DNA from: Acidimicrobiia bacterium
GTDB taxonomy: Bacteria > Acidobacteriota > Vicinamibacteria > Vicinamibacterales > UBA2999
NCBI GenBank assembly: GCA_016871255.1
Contig: VFZH01000007.1
Span: 1-54,590, forward strand
Direction: 5' to 3'
Length of the DNA: 54,590 nt
Part shown: one piece after another, positions 4,328 to 12,200 of the stretch
Layout: every line of letters begins with the position of its first letter
Numbering within the stretch: the stretch's first letter is position 1
Position numbers and translations under genes: made by a program
Notes under the pieces: model-generated
The model's input: only the letters and a program-made list of their open reading frames with translations
The model's database searches: none
Told to the model about the DNA's origin: nothing

Positions 4328-5242
4328 CTACAGGATCCGTTTTCCCAGCGCGGACAGGGCGAGCTCCACGGCGAGCTCCGCGGTCGTGTTCCGCACGTCG
4401 AGCGTCGGATTCACCTCCACCAGGTCGAGCCCTGCCAGGCGGCCCGACTCGGCCACCATCTCCATGACCATGTGCGCTTCCCGGTAGTCGAGCCCGCCGC
4501 GCACCGGCGTGCCCACGCCGGGCGCGATCGACGGATCGCAGGCGTCGAGGTCGAACGACACGTGCACGCCCCCCGTGCCGCGCCCGGCCATCGCCAGCGC
4601 GCGTGACGCCACCTGCGCGATACCGTCCCGATCGATGTCCTTCATCGTGAACACCCGCACGCCGCTCGCGCGAATACGTGCCTTCTCGGCTTCGTCCAGG
4701 TTCCGGATCCCGACGAGGACCGTGTGGCTGGCCTGCACGACGGGGGAGACGTCTCCGATGCCGGCCAGCTCGCGCGGTTCGCTGCCGAGGAGCGCCGCCA
4801 GCGGCATGCCGTGGACGTTGCCACTTGTCGTGGTGTCGGGCGTGTTGATATCGCCGTGCGCATCCACCCAGATCAGACCGAGCGGCCTGCGGTGCCGTTC
4901 CCGCACGCGGGCGGCCGTGGCGGCCACCGAGCCGGCCGCCACGCTGTGATCGCCGCCGAGCACGAGCGGCAACGCATCCTGCCGATGGGACCGCAACGCC
5001 CGTTCGTAGAGCCGCCGGCACACCCGCGCGATGTGCCGGATGTACTTCTTGCGCGGGTCCTCGGGTCGCCGGGATTCGGGGATCGGCACGGGCAGATCGC
5101 CACGGTCCACGACCTGTAGTCCGAGTGTGGCCAGCCGGTCGGCCAGGCCCGCGATGCGCATCGCCGAAGGACCCATGTCGACGCCGCGTCGGCCGGCACC
5201 GAGGTCCAGGGGAGCGCCGATGAGGTGCACGGCACGGCTCAT
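4328..5242 (-). CDS. rocF: arginase
   Basis: 304 aa, the normal length for a bacterial arginase of the ureohydrolase family. Manganese-binding motifs appear in order: GGDHS, DAHGDINTP and SFDLDACDPSIAPGVGTP. The enzyme hydrolyses L-arginine to ornithine and urea in the cytosol. The N-terminus VHLIGAPLDLGAGRRGVDMGPSAMR is typical of arginase rather than agmatinase or formimidoylglutamase. I start at the ATG at 5242, 4 nt after the protoporphyrinogen oxidase stop, because family similarity begins there. It is the last gene of the response regulator-hemE-hemG-rocF run; no metabolic link with haem synthesis is obvious. Confidence 0.93.
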   Translation of the reverse strand: MSRAVHLIGAPLDLGAGRRGVDMGPSAMRIAGLADRLATLGLQVVDRGDLPVPIPESRRPEDPRKKYIRHIARVCRRLYERALRSHRQDALPLVLGGDHSVAAGSVAATAARVRERHRRPLGLIWVDAHGDINTPDTTTSGNVHGMPLAALLGSEPRELAGIGDVSPVVQASHTVLVGIRNLDEAEKARIRASGVRVFTMKDIDRDGIAQVASRALAMAGRGTGGVHVSFDLDACDPSIAPGVGTPVRGGLDYREAHMVMEMVAESGRLAGLDLVEVNPTLDVRNTTAELAVELALSALGKRIL

Positions 5243-5246
5243 GGCA

Positions 5247-6635
5247 TCAGCTGCGCGCCGGGACCGATGCCGCGGTGTGCGCGGCGGCGCGTGCAGCCGC
5301 CTCCCGCGCATCCGCCACACAGTCGGGAATGCCGATCGACCGGAACCCGCTTCCGGCGACGAAGAGCCCGGGGACGGCCGCCAGGTGCCGTTCGATCGCG
5401 GCCATCCGGTCGAGGTGCCCGACTTCGAACTGCGGGCTTCGCCGCTCCCAGCGGTAGAGCCGCGAGAAGAGCGGTGGTCCCGAGATGTGGAGCACGCGTG
5501 CCAGCGCGTCGTGCGCGACGCTCACCAGTTCCTCGTCGGGCCGTGCGAACCCTTCGGGGTCCCGGCCGCCGCCGACGAACGCGCGGAGCAGGACGCAGCC
5601 GTCGGGCGCGCGCCCGGGCCACTTCGAGCTGACCCACGTGCCGGCGAGGATCGGGCAGCGTTCACGGCGGGGCACGACGAACCCGGTGCCGCTGAGCGGG
5701 TGGCTCACCTGCGACCGGCGGTACCCGAGTGCCACTGTGGCCGTGGACGCATACGGCACCTCCGCGCAGAGGCGGGACGCGTCCGGGCTCAGCTCGCCGA
5801 GCAGCGCGGCTGCCGCGTACGCCGGCACGGCGGCGATCACGGCCTTCGCGCGAATCGACTCCGCGTCCGTACTGACGACGAAAGCCCCGTCGTGGTGCAG
5901 GCGGGTCACGGGGGTGGAGAGCCGAAGGGTCCCCGGCATCAGGGCCGCCTCGAGCCGATCGGTCAGCTCACCGATGCCGCCAGGCAGCGAGACGAATGCC
6001 CCATCGGGCGACGCGGGTCCGCGCACGGTGCGGAAGGCGCGAAGCACGCTGCCGTGGCGTGACTCGGCCGCGACGAGCCTGGGGAAGAGCGCCCGGGCCG
6101 AGAGTCGGTCGGCATCGCCCGCGTGAATGCCGGCGAGGAGCGGGTCGGCGAGGTACTCGGCGGCTTCGCGTCCGAAGCGTCGGGCGACAAAGGCGCCAAG
6201 CGCTTCGTCCTCGTTGTCCGTGCGGCGTGGGACCAGGACCTCGAGGCCCATCCGGAGTTTGCCGGGCCAGGTGAAGAGCGACGAGGTGGCCAGGGCGCGG
6301 GCGCTCAGCGGAAAGCCCAGGAACGACCCCTCGACGATCGGATGAAGGCGGCCGCCTCGCAGTACGTACGCCGTCCGGGGGGTGAGCGTCGGGTGGAGCC
6401 GGTCGCCGAGGCCCAGCTCGTGGCACAGGGCCACCCCGGCGGGTTTCTGCACCAGCAGCGAATCCGGGCCGCCGTCGATCACCCAGCCGTCGAATCGTTC
6501 GCTGAGGATGACGCCGCCGGCACGGGGGGTCCGCTCGAGGACCGAAACGGTGAGGCCGCGGCGCTGCAGTTCCCAGGCGGCCGACAGCCCGGCGATGCCT
6601 GCGCCGATCACGACGGTGTCGACGAGCGGTTCCAT
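5247..6635 (-). CDS. hemG: protoporphyrinogen oxidase (FAD-dependent, HemG/HemY type)
   Basis: 462 aa. The N-terminal dinucleotide motif VIGAGIAGLSAAWELQRRG binds FAD; the C-terminus LFVAGSGFRSIGIPDCVADAREAA is the conserved FAD-contacting end of oxygen-dependent protoporphyrinogen oxidases. It oxidises protoporphyrinogen IX (coproporphyrinogen III in some relatives) in late haem synthesis. hemE lies 35 nt upstream in the same direction, which supports the haem role. Ferrochelatase, often placed between the two, is not in this window. Related flavin amine oxidases are the alternative, but context makes HemG/HemY likely. Confidence 0.92.
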   Translation of the reverse strand: MEPLVDTVVIGAGIAGLSAAWELQRRGLTVSVLERTPRAGGVILSERFDGWVIDGGPDSLLVQKPAGVALCHELGLGDRLHPTLTPRTAYVLRGGRLHPIVEGSFLGFPLSARALATSSLFTWPGKLRMGLEVLVPRRTDNEDEALGAFVARRFGREAAEYLADPLLAGIHAGDADRLSARALFPRLVAAESRHGSVLRAFRTVRGPASPDGAFVSLPGGIGELTDRLEAALMPGTLRLSTPVTRLHHDGAFVVSTDAESIRAKAVIAAVPAYAAAALLGELSPDASRLCAEVPYASTATVALGYRRSQVSHPLSGTGFVVPRRERCPILAGTWVSSKWPGRAPDGCVLLRAFVGGGRDPEGFARPDEELVSVAHDALARVLHISGPPLFSRLYRWERRSPQFEVGHLDRMAAIERHLAAVPGLFVAGSGFRSIGIPDCVADAREAAARAAAHTAASVPARS

Positions 6636-6670
6636 CGTGCGCGGTCCGCCAGACCCTGCTGCGACGGGCG

Positions 6671-7744
6671 TCAGCCGGCGCCGGCCGGACTGCCCGATTC
6701 CGGTGCCGGCCGCCTCGTGACCGCGTGCACGTGTTCGGCCAGCAGCTGGACGTGTTCGAGCGGCGTGGACGGCAGGATGCCGTGACCCAGGTTGAAGATG
6801 TGGCCGGGGCGGCCGTCCGCGCGAGCGAGCACGTCCTCGGCTGCGTCGAGCAGCCGCTCGATCGGACCGAGCAGCAGCGTGGGATCGAGGTTGCCCTGTA
6901 CGGCCCGATCGTGGCCGATCCGCGTCCAGGCGTCGTCCAGCGGGATCCGCCAGTCCACGCCGATGACCTCGCCCCCGGCGTCACGCAGCTCTTCCAGCAG
7001 CATCGACGTGCCGGTGCCGAAGTGGATCGTGGGGACGCGCCCGCCGACCGCCTCGAAGATGCGGCGGGTGTGGGGCAGCACGAACTCGCGGTAGTCGGCC
7101 GCGTTGAGCGCCCCGACCCAGGAGTCGAACACCTGGACGGCGTCGACACCGGCGTCGATCTGCGCGTTGAGGTAGTCGCCGGCCATGGCGGCCAGCCTGC
7201 CGCAGAGCCGATGCCAGGCCTCCGGCTGTCCGTACATGAGCGTCTTCGTCTGTGCGTAGTTCGACGAAGGTCCCCCTTCGATGGCGTACGACGCCAGCGT
7301 GAACGGCGCTCCGGTGAACCCGATCAACGGGACACGGCCCTGCAACTCCCGTTTGACCTGCCGGATGGTCTGCAGGACGTGCGCGAGCGACTCGCGGGGA
7401 TCGAACGGCCGCAACCGATCGATGTCCCAGGCCGATCGCAGGGGCGTTTCGATCGCCGGGCCCTCGCCGGCGATGAAGTCGAAGGGCAGTCCCATGGGCT
7501 CGAGCGGCAGCAGCAGATCGGAAAAGAGGATCGCCGCGTCGACGTCGATGCGCCGCAGGGGCTGGAGGGTGACCTCGGTCGCCAGATCCGGCGTGCGGCA
7601 CAGCTCCAGCAGCGAGTGCTTCTCGCGGAGCCGCCGGTATTCGGCCATGTACCGGCCGGCCTGTCGCATGAACCAGACCGGTGTCCGGTCCACCTCCCGG
7701 CGGCGGCAGGCATCGAGGAATCGCGTGTTCGTCACTGTGGTCAC
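6671..7744 (-). CDS. hemE: uroporphyrinogen decarboxylase
   Basis: 357 aa. It contains the family signatures PVWFMRQAGRYMAEYR near the N-terminus and PLIGFTGAPFTLASYAIEGG in the middle, plus HFGTGTSMLL near the C-terminal third. It removes four carboxyl groups from uroporphyrinogen III to give coproporphyrinogen III. The GTG at 7744 overlaps the stop of the response-regulator gene (GTGA), indicating translational coupling; a second in-frame GTG at 7735 is possible. The longer ORF upstream is a shadow of the regulator gene. Confidence 0.95.
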   Translation of the reverse strand: MTTVTNTRFLDACRRREVDRTPVWFMRQAGRYMAEYRRLREKHSLLELCRTPDLATEVTLQPLRRIDVDAAILFSDLLLPLEPMGLPFDFIAGEGPAIETPLRSAWDIDRLRPFDPRESLAHVLQTIRQVKRELQGRVPLIGFTGAPFTLASYAIEGGPSSNYAQTKTLMYGQPEAWHRLCGRLAAMAGDYLNAQIDAGVDAVQVFDSWVGALNAADYREFVLPHTRRIFEAVGGRVPTIHFGTGTSMLLEELRDAGGEVIGVDWRIPLDDAWTRIGHDRAVQGNLDPTLLLGPIERLLDAAEDVLARADGRPGHIFNLGHGILPSTPLEHVQLLAEHVHAVTRRPAPESGSPAGAG

Positions 7745-8133
7745 TCGGGAACCGGCTGGCGGATCAGGTCGCGGGCCAGGGTCACGAGCTCCTCCAGCCA
7801 CAGGGGCTTGAAGCGAACCTCGGCGTCCAGGGCACGGATCTCTGCCGCCTGATCGTCGTCGAGATAGTAGTCGCCGGTCACGATGGCGACGGGAGTCCGG
7901 GCCAGCCCGGGAATCGCGCGCACGGCGCGCAGGAACTGCAGCCCGCTGGTGAGCGGCATGCGGAGGTCGAGGATGACGGCGTGCGGGCGGTGCGCCTGCG
8001 CCAGCATCAGCCCTTCGTCGGCCGAGAGGGCCGCCCATACCTCGTGGCCCTCCAGACGCAACATCCGCGAGAATGTGTCCGTCACGCTCACGTCGTCGTC
8101 AACGATGAGGACGCGGGTGACGGCGTGTTCCAC
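7741..8133 (-). CDS. single-domain response regulator (receiver only)
   Basis: About 130 aa with one CheY-like receiver domain: the acidic pocket is IVDDDVSV, the phospho-acceptor Asp is in HAVILDLRMP, the switch Thr/Ser region is VAIVTGDYY, and the conserved Lys lies in VRFKPL. There is no DNA-binding output domain. Start is taken as the GTG at 8133 (VEHAVTRVLIVDDD); a GTG at 8145 is also possible. Its stop overlaps the hemE start, so it is co-translated with haem genes, which is odd for a CheY-like protein. The partner kinase is unknown. Confidence 0.85.
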   Translation of the reverse strand: MEHAVTRVLIVDDDVSVTDTFSRMLRLEGHEVWAALSADEGLMLAQAHRPHAVILDLRMPLTSGLQFLRAVRAIPGLARTPVAIVTGDYYLDDDQAAEIRALDAEVRFKPLWLEELVTLARDLIRQPVPE

Positions 8134-8273: not shown

Positions 8274-8333
8274 CAGCCGGTTTCGGGGCCGGTGGTCGTG
8301 GCGCCGGCAGGGTCAAGGCGCGACCCGGAGGCT

Positions 8334-9044
8334 GTGTTGAGCCCAATCCTCGTAAGGCCCGTGCGCGAGCAGCTCGAGCACGACAAGGTCATCCGCCTGC
8401 TGCAGGCGAAGTACAAGCGCAAGCACGACGCCAGGATCAATCCCGGAGCTCAGCAGGACGCGCCGGTCGGTTCCGGCCCCATGCCCCTGTTTCCCGACGT
8501 CGTGTTGCACGAGAACGACTCGTCGAAGAAGGTGGCCGGCGTCGTCGAAGTCGAGACCTCCGAGTCGGTCAACCACCTCGAGGCGTCGTACCAGTGGGCC
8601 GGGTTCGGGCGTCTGCGTGTGCCCTTCCATCTCTACGTGCCCGCCGCGTCGGTCGAAGGTGCCCGGCGGCTGTGCACGGAGCTCCAGATACCCGTGGCCG
8701 AGCTGTGGGCGTACCACGCAGTCGGTGAGGAGATCCGCTTCACGCTGATCCTCCGCGCCGCCCAGCCGGCGGAGACGAAGTCGCGGGCAAGTACGACTGG
8801 ACGTCGGGCCGCACGGACCCGGCCGGCCGCGGCCGCGCGCAAGGCGCCCGCGAGGAAGGCCGCGACCCCGCGGAAGGCCGCGAGCGGGCGCAGGACCACG
8901 GCCGCCCGGAGCGCCCGTCGGTCAGGGGCCGCGAAGAAGGCCACCTCTTCACGCGCGACACGCGCGACAGGGGCGGCCGCGAAGAAGCGTCCGGCGGCGA
9001 CGCGCGCTGCGAAGATCCGTCGCGGTGCCACCAAGCGAAAATAG
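8334..9044 (+). CDS. conserved domain with a histone H1-like basic tail
   Basis: 236 aa from the GTG at 8334 (TTG 8337 is an alternative). Residues about 1-145 form a globular domain: LVRPVREQLEHDKVIRLLQAKYKRKHDARINPG, then FPDVVLHENDSSKKVAGVVEVET, then VPFHLYVPAASVEGARRLC. The D...EVE arrangement after a strand recalls the core of PD-(D/E)XK nuclease folds, but the lysine is missing, so catalysis is doubtful. Residues about 150-236 are low-complexity Ala/Lys/Arg (AARKAPARKAATPRK, GAAKKATSS), like bacterial histone H1 or AlgP tails, which bind DNA or RNA non-specifically. It is followed at once by a second unknown gene. Function unknown; nucleic-acid association is inferred. Confidence 0.7.
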   Translation: MLSPILVRPVREQLEHDKVIRLLQAKYKRKHDARINPGAQQDAPVGSGPMPLFPDVVLHENDSSKKVAGVVEVETSESVNHLEASYQWAGFGRLRVPFHLYVPAASVEGARRLCTELQIPVAELWAYHAVGEEIRFTLILRAAQPAETKSRASTTGRRAARTRPAAAARKAPARKAATPRKAASGRRTTAARSARRSGAAKKATSSRATRATGAAAKKRPAATRAAKIRRGATKRK

Positions 9045-9048
9045 CCTC

Positions 9049-9699
9049 GTGCCGTTTCTCAGGGTCCTCAGGGACAAGCGCGGCTACGAAACCACCTACC
9101 TCATGGACTACGGACGCGAGGGCGCCCGCCAGCGCTCGCGCGTGTTGTACGTGTTCCGGTCGCCACCCGGCCTTCGCGTGGGACGGCAGGTGCTCGAGGG
9201 CGACGTGCGCCGCGAGATCGAGACGGCGCATCCGGAGATTGCGTTTGACTGGCGTGCCGTCTTCGCCGATCGACAGGTCATCGAGACCAGGGATGTCCGT
9301 CGCCCGCGGCGGCGGCGGGAGGCGGACAGCGACGAGCCTGCCGCCGCCCCCGCGCCTGCGCCGGACGCCGCCGACAGCCCGGCTCCAGCTTCAGCGGGTG
9401 CCCAGGGTTCCGGGGTTCCGGCCGCCATCGAGGGCGCCACCGATGACGAGCGCCTGGCCTGGCTGCGTGGGTGGTACCCGCGGCTCCACGCCCGCGTCAC
9501 GGCACTGCACGATCCCGCTCGGCGCGAGGCGCTGACCGCCCTGGCCGAACGGCTGAATCCGGACGGCTGGGCGCAGGAGGTCGATCTGGCCACGCACCTC
9601 CACGAGGCCGGCGTGGCGCTCGAGCGGCTCTCGCGTGTGCTGACGCGCCGCCGCCAGCGGCGACGGGCGGCGGGGCCCGGCGCACCAGGCGCGCGCTGA
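9049..9699 (+). CDS. uncharacterised protein, partner of the H1-tail gene
   Basis: 216 aa from the GTG at 9049, four bases after the previous stop; a GTG at 9025 would overlap that gene. An N-terminal domain (PFLRVLRDKRGYETTYLMDYGREGARQRSRVLYVFRSPPGLRVG) is rich in charged and aromatic residues. It is followed by the basic patch RRPRRRREAD, a Pro/Ala linker (PAAAPAPAPDAADSPAPAS) and an alpha-helical C-terminal domain (ERLAWLRGWYPRLHARVTAL). The N-terminal look is of a small RNA- or protein-binding beta domain, but I do not recognise a family. The tight spacing indicates joint function with the upstream gene. Confidence 0.65.
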   Translation: MPFLRVLRDKRGYETTYLMDYGREGARQRSRVLYVFRSPPGLRVGRQVLEGDVRREIETAHPEIAFDWRAVFADRQVIETRDVRRPRRRREADSDEPAAAPAPAPDAADSPAPASAGAQGSGVPAAIEGATDDERLAWLRGWYPRLHARVTALHDPARREALTALAERLNPDGWAQEVDLATHLHEAGVALERLSRVLTRRRQRRRAAGPGAPGAR

Positions 9700-10889: not shown

Positions 10890-12200
10890 ATGACAAGACC
10901 CGCCGCACTGGTCCTGGCTGCCGCGCTCGCGCAGCTGGTTGTCGGCCCCCTTGCCGCCCGGCAGGCGCCTGCCGGGGGACAGAGCCAGGAGGGTGTCGTC
11001 GCCCCCCAGACCGGGGGGCAGGCGACGTTCCGCGCGGCGGTCAACCTGGTGACGACGGACGTCATCGTGCGGGACGGTCGCGGTCAGTTCGTGGCGGACC
11101 TGAAGGGCAGCGACTTCGCGGTCTTCGAGGACGGGGTCGCGCAGGACATCGCGTCGGTGGTGCTGATCCACGGGGCTCGCGTCTTCAACATGCAGGCTCC
11201 GCCGCCGCCGCCCGTGTCCGAGGGCATCATCCTGCCGCCCGTGAAGCCGGTGAGCGACGCGGCCGGCCGCATCTTCGTCTTCTTCGTGGACGACCTGCAC
11301 CTCACGTTCCGCGAGACCGCGCGCACGCGCGATCTCTTCAAGCGCATCCTGAAGAACCTGCTCCACGACGGCGACATGTTCGGCATCGTGTCCACCGGGC
11401 CGTCCTCGCTGTCCATCCAGTTGACCTACGACCACAAGGTTCTGGAGGAAGCCATCAGCCGCATCACCGGTGACGGGCTCAAGCCGAGCGACATCATGCA
11501 GCAGCAGCAGGGCCCGAACGGACCGATGGAGCTGCGCTACCGGTCGCACGTGGCGTTCAAGACGGCGTTCGAGCTGGTCAAGAATCTGGAGCGCATCAAC
11601 AACCGCCGGAAGGCCGTCATCTACGTGAGCAGCGGGTACGATTTCAACCCGTTCGAGGTCTCGCGCCTGCGGCAGGAGCAGGAGCGGTTCGGGGGGGCGG
11701 GCAGCACGACGGACCCGACCACGGGTGAGCCGCAGGACCGGCTGACGCCGTTCTCCAGCCGGACGCCGGACCAGAGCGGCGCCCAGTTCGCCGACACCGA
11801 CCTGGCCATCGAGCTCGCCGAGTTGGCGCGTGCGGCCAACCGGGCCAACGCCACGCTCTACACGATCGATCCCCGTGGACTCGTGGCCGGCATGGACCTC
11901 GATGAGGAGATCGAGCCGCGCGACTGGGACGTCTACGTCCGCAAGACGCAGGACAGCCTGCGCACCCTGGCCGAGCTGACCGGCGGCATCGCGGTCGTCA
12001 ACCAGAACGACTTCGATCGGGCGCTGAAGCGGATCGACGCCGAGACCAGCGACTACTACGTGCTCGGCTACTACTCGAGCAACCCGGATCCGCTGCGCCG
12101 CAACCGCCGCATCGAGGTGAAGGTGCCCGGGCGCGAGGGCCTCGACGTCTGGGCGCGACGGGGGTACTCGCTGCCCGAAGCCGGGGCCACACCCCAGTAG
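10890..12200 (+). CDS. secreted VWFA-related protein of the acidobacterial type
   Basis: 436 aa. An N-terminal signal peptide (LVLAAALAQLVVGPLAARQAPA) is followed by the segment VNLVTTDVIVRDGRGQFVADLKGSDFAVFEDGVAQDI, the hallmark of the 'VWFA-related Acidobacterial domain' family. A von Willebrand A-like fold follows: FVFFVDDLHLT as a metal-site strand, KAVIYVSSGYDFNPF, and TLYTIDPRGL. The end (SDYYVLGYYSSNPDPLRRNRRIEVKV) is the usual terminal beta-sandwich. It is probably exported and binds another protein or cell-surface ligand; the exact role is unknown for the family. It converges on the LysR regulator. Confidence 0.9.
   Translation: MTRPAALVLAAALAQLVVGPLAARQAPAGGQSQEGVVAPQTGGQATFRAAVNLVTTDVIVRDGRGQFVADLKGSDFAVFEDGVAQDIASVVLIHGARVFNMQAPPPPPVSEGIILPPVKPVSDAAGRIFVFFVDDLHLTFRETARTRDLFKRILKNLLHDGDMFGIVSTGPSSLSIQLTYDHKVLEEAISRITGDGLKPSDIMQQQQGPNGPMELRYRSHVAFKTAFELVKNLERINNRRKAVIYVSSGYDFNPFEVSRLRQEQERFGGAGSTTDPTTGEPQDRLTPFSSRTPDQSGAQFADTDLAIELAELARAANRANATLYTIDPRGLVAGMDLDEEIEPRDWDVYVRKTQDSLRTLAELTGGIAVVNQNDFDRALKRIDAETSDYYVLGYYSSNPDPLRRNRRIEVKVPGREGLDVWARRGYSLPEAGATPQ

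Follow-up and report, generated by a model that had tools for sequence, protein, structure and literature searches.

A Vicinamibacterales gene pair encoding a PD-(D/E)XK-like protein with a histone H1-like tail and a partner of uncertain fold

A change of the motif lysine to glutamate within the PD-(D/E)XK motif is known in the active restriction endonuclease BamHI (PMC4081073), and in SfsA a domain of the PD-(D/E)XK type is combined with a separate DNA-binding part, an OB-fold (PMC1189080). A different means of DNA association is found in actinobacterial topoisomerase I, where lysine repeats resembling histone H1 hold the enzyme on DNA and give processivity (PMC7398561). Here the gene structure, fold, invariant acids, tail, distribution and synteny of a protein (A) with features of all three are described from computational analysis, together with the product (B) of the gene that follows it. 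Both are encoded in the window, that is, the whole stretch of 54,590 nucleotides that was analysed (GenBank assembly GCA_016871255.1, contig VFZH01000007.1), from a genome of the Vicinamibacterales. This order of soil and groundwater bacteria has been reported as containing common soil acidobacteria.

Neither protein gave a match above cut-off in Pfam or NCBIfam, in line with an initial sequence-only reading of the window that could place neither of them in a named family. Likewise, searches of Pfam, NCBIfam, PHROGs, PADLOC and PDB sequences, with single proteins as well as alignments, returned only stray matches below threshold. A and B form a near-core, single-copy pair of the order that standard annotation leaves nameless.

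Gene structure and neighbourhood

Both genes are located on the forward (+) strand. Gene A, encoding the PD-(D/E)XK-like domain and the H1-like tail, occupies positions 8337..9044 and ends in a TAG stop codon at 9044; its product comprises 235 aa when translated from TTG 8337 and 236 aa from GTG 8334, the latter being counted as residue 1 throughout. The Shine-Dalgarno core GGAGG (8327..8331, +) lies 5 nt before TTG 8337 and 2 nt before GTG 8334. The codon directly 5' of the residues S-P-I-L-V-R-P is GTG, TTG or ATG in 57 of 58 homologous contexts, and a Shine-Dalgarno core is found 4–7 nt 5' of the homologous starts in 53 of the 58. Since both the start codon and the spacing are kept in the homologous contexts, the start of A was placed at TTG 8337, which on these sequence comparisons is most likely the better start relative to GTG 8334. 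Gene B (9049..9699, +; 216 aa, GTG start) begins 4 nt after the stop of A. The two reading frames and the 4-nt gap proposed from the sequence alone consequently hold, with the start of A refined. A clear Shine-Dalgarno site precedes B in just 22 of 60 contexts, and this scarcity is in keeping with a translation of B that is coupled to that of A.

To the left of A, on the opposite strand (window 4331-8130, -), are genes for a lone receiver-domain protein, hemE, protoporphyrinogen oxidase and arginase. To the right of B, a gene for a VTT-domain protein is followed by one for an acidobacterial VWA-domain protein, TIGR03436 (window 10890-12200). Throughout the order A-B is regularly flanked by hemE and the VWA gene, whereas the receiver and VTT genes accompany it at some of the loci only. 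The hemE, VWA and receiver neighbours do not suggest any pathway for A-B, nor a link to DNA repair. The VWA gene is a constant downstream neighbour order-wide, also at loci where A or B has been lost.

The nuclease-like domain and H1-like tail of A

Residues 2-144 of A (8337..8765, +) were modelled by AlphaFold2 on alignment A1, which comprises 55 homologues, with a pLDDT of 90 and a pTM of 0.85. The model contains helices at residues 10-27, 81-92 and 104-116 and strands at 32-35, 56-59, 67-73, 98-103, 123-130 and 133-141, arranged as alpha-beta-beta-beta-alpha-beta, the core of the PD-(D/E)XK fold, to which an alpha-beta-beta extension is added. The D...EVE pattern that had been singled out in the first product corresponds to the PD half-motif P54-D55 (codons 8493..8498, +), just before strand 2 (56-59) and invariant, and to the ExE half-motif E72-V73-E74 (8547..8555, +) at the end of strand 3 (67-73), in which E72 and E74 are invariant. 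A further acid, E15 (8376..8378, +), is located in the first helix (10-27) and is retained in 69 of 69 distinct homologues. In the 55-homologue alignment and in the wider set of 69 distinct sequences the invariant positions are R8, P9, E12, Q13, E15, H16, L23, N36, P54, D55, E72, E74, S78, E83, W88, L100, P103 and E123. Judged from secondary-structure positions, the acids E15, D55, E72 and E74 sit in the canonical PD-(D/E)XK places, so that the core topology is accompanied by the PD, the variant (D/E)xK acids and the helix-1 acid in the right elements; the lysine of (D/E)xK is replaced by glutamate, giving ExE.

A Foldseek search of the PDB with the model returned SfsA (4dap) as the top match (probability 0.92, E 7.5e-3, TM 0.42 at best). 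BsaXI, VC1899, Cdn1, TT1808, BsaWI, MUS81-EME1 and tRNA splicing endonucleases also appear in the list, in which members and relatives of the superfamily are mixed with unrelated alpha/beta proteins. The best matches are mostly superfamily members, although at no better than these scores. The nuclease-like character initially attributed to the folded domain is supported by the confident model with its PD-(D/E)XK core; as modelled, A would belong to the PD-(D/E)XK fold by a likeness confined to the level of the fold. Homology to SfsA or YraN was rejected at the sequence level, as hhalign gave 1.6% and 0.3%, respectively, near the 0.2-0.5% of unrelated controls. Membership of A in the SfsA family was also rejected, there being no match of A to Pfam PF03749 and the hhalign alignment with SfsA being out of register.

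The presence of tRNA splicing endonucleases in the Foldseek list could be taken to favour an RNA enzyme, in which A, with B, might take part in the maturation or decay of rRNA or tRNA, among other processes, and the basic tail would be placed on RNA. Basic tails and Arg patches bind RNA too. However, the tail of A is H1-like in composition, the clearer fold matches are to DNA nucleases and the A-B loci have no ribosomal or RNA-processing neighbours, making an RNA substrate a rather unlikely alternative.

The domain of A is followed by an Ala/Lys/Arg tail of 94 aa (8760..9041, +), of which 31 residues are A, 20 R and 11 K, ending in KRK. No other H1-like stretch of 80 aa occurs in any of the six frames of the window (54.6 kb). 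The histone H1-like tail recognised at the outset is genuine, as it extends 94 aa beyond the modelled domain and is kept in every complete homologue of A examined, with a length of 43-412 aa (median 78; 65 distinct homologues). These tails are long, rich in Ala, Lys, Pro and Arg and poor in acids and hydrophobics, with median contents of 71% A+K+R+P, 31% K+R, 2% D+E and 1% F/W/Y/C/I/M/L (n=65), and 64 of the 65 end in K or R, most frequently as KRK. Comparison of eight close-relative pairs gave dN/dS values of ~0.05-0.19 for the core and ~0.14-0.8 for the tail; the higher values of the tail show that its composition, rather than its sequence, is kept. By analogy with the lysine repeats of topoisomerase I, the tail would serve to retain A on DNA.

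The invariant acids and the low dN/dS of the core are as expected for a working active site, and the retention of all these acids throughout the order argues, at the sequence level, for catalysis by A. The principal competing explanation is a nucleoid-associated, H1-like DNA-binding protein in which a catalytically dead nuclease fold serves binding or dimerisation only. Such a protein would account for the tail being the largest DNA-binding feature of A and never absent from complete homologues, as well as for the missing motif lysine. Still, 69 distinct sequences, drawn from over a dozen families, all retain the acids, a constraint not called for at a dead site, and ExE is active in BamHI (PMC4081073); we regard a purely structural A as unlikely.

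Protein B

The N-domain of B (9049..9285, +) contains the sequence RGYETTYLMD and the invariant residues D9, G12, Y34, G45, F66 and W68. It comprises ~80 aa, modelled with a pLDDT of ~90 as beta-beta-beta-alpha-alpha-beta, i.e. three strands, two helices and one strand. The domain is followed by a variable linker of low confidence, which carries the Arg-rich patch RRPRRRR (residues 84-90; 9298..9318, +), basic in most homologues, and then usually by a C-terminal three-helix domain (residues 132-202 in the model; 9442..9654, +) that is absent from some homologues. A second Arg-rich stretch follows this helical domain. Both the RGYETTYLMD element and the basic patch had been picked out in the initial reading.

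Fold searches with B against the PDB and viral models gave no usable match; the B family has no name, and its fold is uncertain. The small beta-sheet domain and the basic patches are what make a nucleic-acid role of B plausible. The original suggestion that both products are nucleic-acid related is therefore sustained for A, through its nuclease-like domain, and less firmly for B, given these two features and the outcome of the fold searches. As the sole hint from beyond the family, the N-domain of B weakly matches the N-terminus of a tetratricopeptide repeat (TPR) protein in a relative, G051 (locus L128; profile search, E 4e-5, 25.8 bits), encoded at L128:1343-2767 (G051:C52) and starting MAYVRRRGNQLAIVHGEREPTSGKVQQRILFTLYSKAEA; the small domain may thus occur in other architectures.

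Distribution, proposed function and comparison with known systems

Of 59 relatives, 53 carry A, as do 121 of 193 class genomes and 27 of 297 genomes sampled from the phylum; the corresponding numbers for B are 47/59, 125/193 and 25/297. The occurrence of the A domain in 53/59 and of B in 47/59 relatives places both far above chance, and A and B are real, conserved genes. All 27 genomes with A in the phylum sample are Vicinamibacterales, by sequence and by profile search, and the named relatives are Vicinamibacteria/Vicinamibacterales metagenome-assembled genomes. Both genes are single-copy, chromosomal and, among the genomes searched, limited to this order, throughout which their conservation is striking.

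The two-gene unit proposed from the sequence proved to be the usual arrangement, and not an obligatory one. Both genes are present in 106 of the 193 class genomes, whereas A occurs alone in 15 and B alone in 19, although a few of these single cases may reflect contig ends. A-only families show the order hemE, A, VWA gene and a B-only genome the order hemE, B, VWA gene, in both cases at the same site as A-B. Strict co-conservation was consequently ruled out, as each of the two genes can be missing from the site at which its partner is retained. A subclade (genomes of family f8; loci L112 and L124-L127, of which L112 was the locus examined) retains B and has lost A.

PD-(D/E)XK domains are frequent in defence, and one of 55 members touches a CARF_PDDEXK model (E 0.01), which would fit an anti-phage or restriction-like defence pair. 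The distribution speaks against this, as A-B is near-universal in the order, in single copy and fixed synteny, with no paralogues and no methylase. Neither plasmids nor the scanned viral contigs yielded relatives of A or B, and the PADLOC matches are weak strays. Nothing here hence points to A as a defence or mobile gene, and a defence function of the pair is highly improbable. Among these rivals, the dead structural DNA-binding protein is the most likely, followed by the RNA enzyme and then the defence system.

A position of A in the core of the order could also be expected if A replaced the Holliday-junction resolvase of the cell; resolvases of the PD-(D/E)XK type exist. However, 54 of the 59 relatives have RuvC, the genome of the window among them. 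The idea of A as a stand-in for RuvC was therefore rejected, and we give the resolvase explanation virtually no weight.

In combination, we consider it probable that A is a metal-dependent PD-(D/E)XK nuclease acting on chromosomal DNA, tethered by its H1-like tail and serving a housekeeping role, with B as an optional accessory. The catalytic acids of the N-terminal domain would be E15, D55, E72 and E74, with ExE as in BamHI. The disordered Ala/Lys/Arg/Pro tail would bind DNA without sequence specificity and keep A on it, like the repeats of TopA. B would be translated directly after A in most genomes and is probably a basic nucleic-acid-binding adaptor; as an optional accessory it may also contact A. 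The role of A may be sought in repair, recombination or the clearing of DNA structures rather than in defence, and is most likely housekeeping because the gene occurs in one copy, is passed on vertically and holds a fixed position. A more far-reaching proposal, which we put forward as speculative and on balance doubtful, is that A and B represent two undescribed families of an order-specific housekeeping DNA-processing pathway, where a tail-tethered, chromatin-like PD-ExE nuclease and a dedicated adaptor of new fold would do a job that is done elsewhere by another enzyme.

SfsA (PF03749) was found in 41 of 149 genomes elsewhere in the phylum and is nearly absent from Vicinamibacterales, with G010 as the only case among the matches listed; the window's genome has no PF03749 match. 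Whether A stands in for SfsA in this order is a question raised by the analysis.

Compared with the described systems, B resembles the G051 TPR protein (L128, N-terminus MAYVRRRGNQLAIVHGE...) by the weak N-terminal profile match, whereas the latter runs on into tetratricopeptide repeats and is encoded away from the A-B locus. A and SfsA each join a PD-(D/E)XK-type domain to a second part for DNA binding, a role that is predicted for the tail of A; however, A has ExE where SfsA has EVK, and carries a C-terminal H1-like tail in place of the N-terminal OB-fold. With BamHI-type PD...ExE restriction endonucleases A shares the D...ExE acids, including glutamate for lysine (PMC4081073), but no sequence similarity to these was found, and A has no methylase partner and shows a housekeeping distribution. 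Actinobacterial topoisomerase I and HupB-type HU, like A, join a DNA-processing or DNA-binding domain to a long Lys/Ala-rich tail (PMC7398561); their globular domains are unrelated to that of A, whose tail is richer in Arg and terminates in a basic triplet that is conserved. As modelled, A represents a family of the PD-(D/E)XK fold that is new and has no name, and its H1-like tail is unusual. Should A prove to be an active PD-ExE nuclease anchored on DNA through this tail, the superfamily would gain a new family, and bacterial nucleases an example that bears a histone-like tail.
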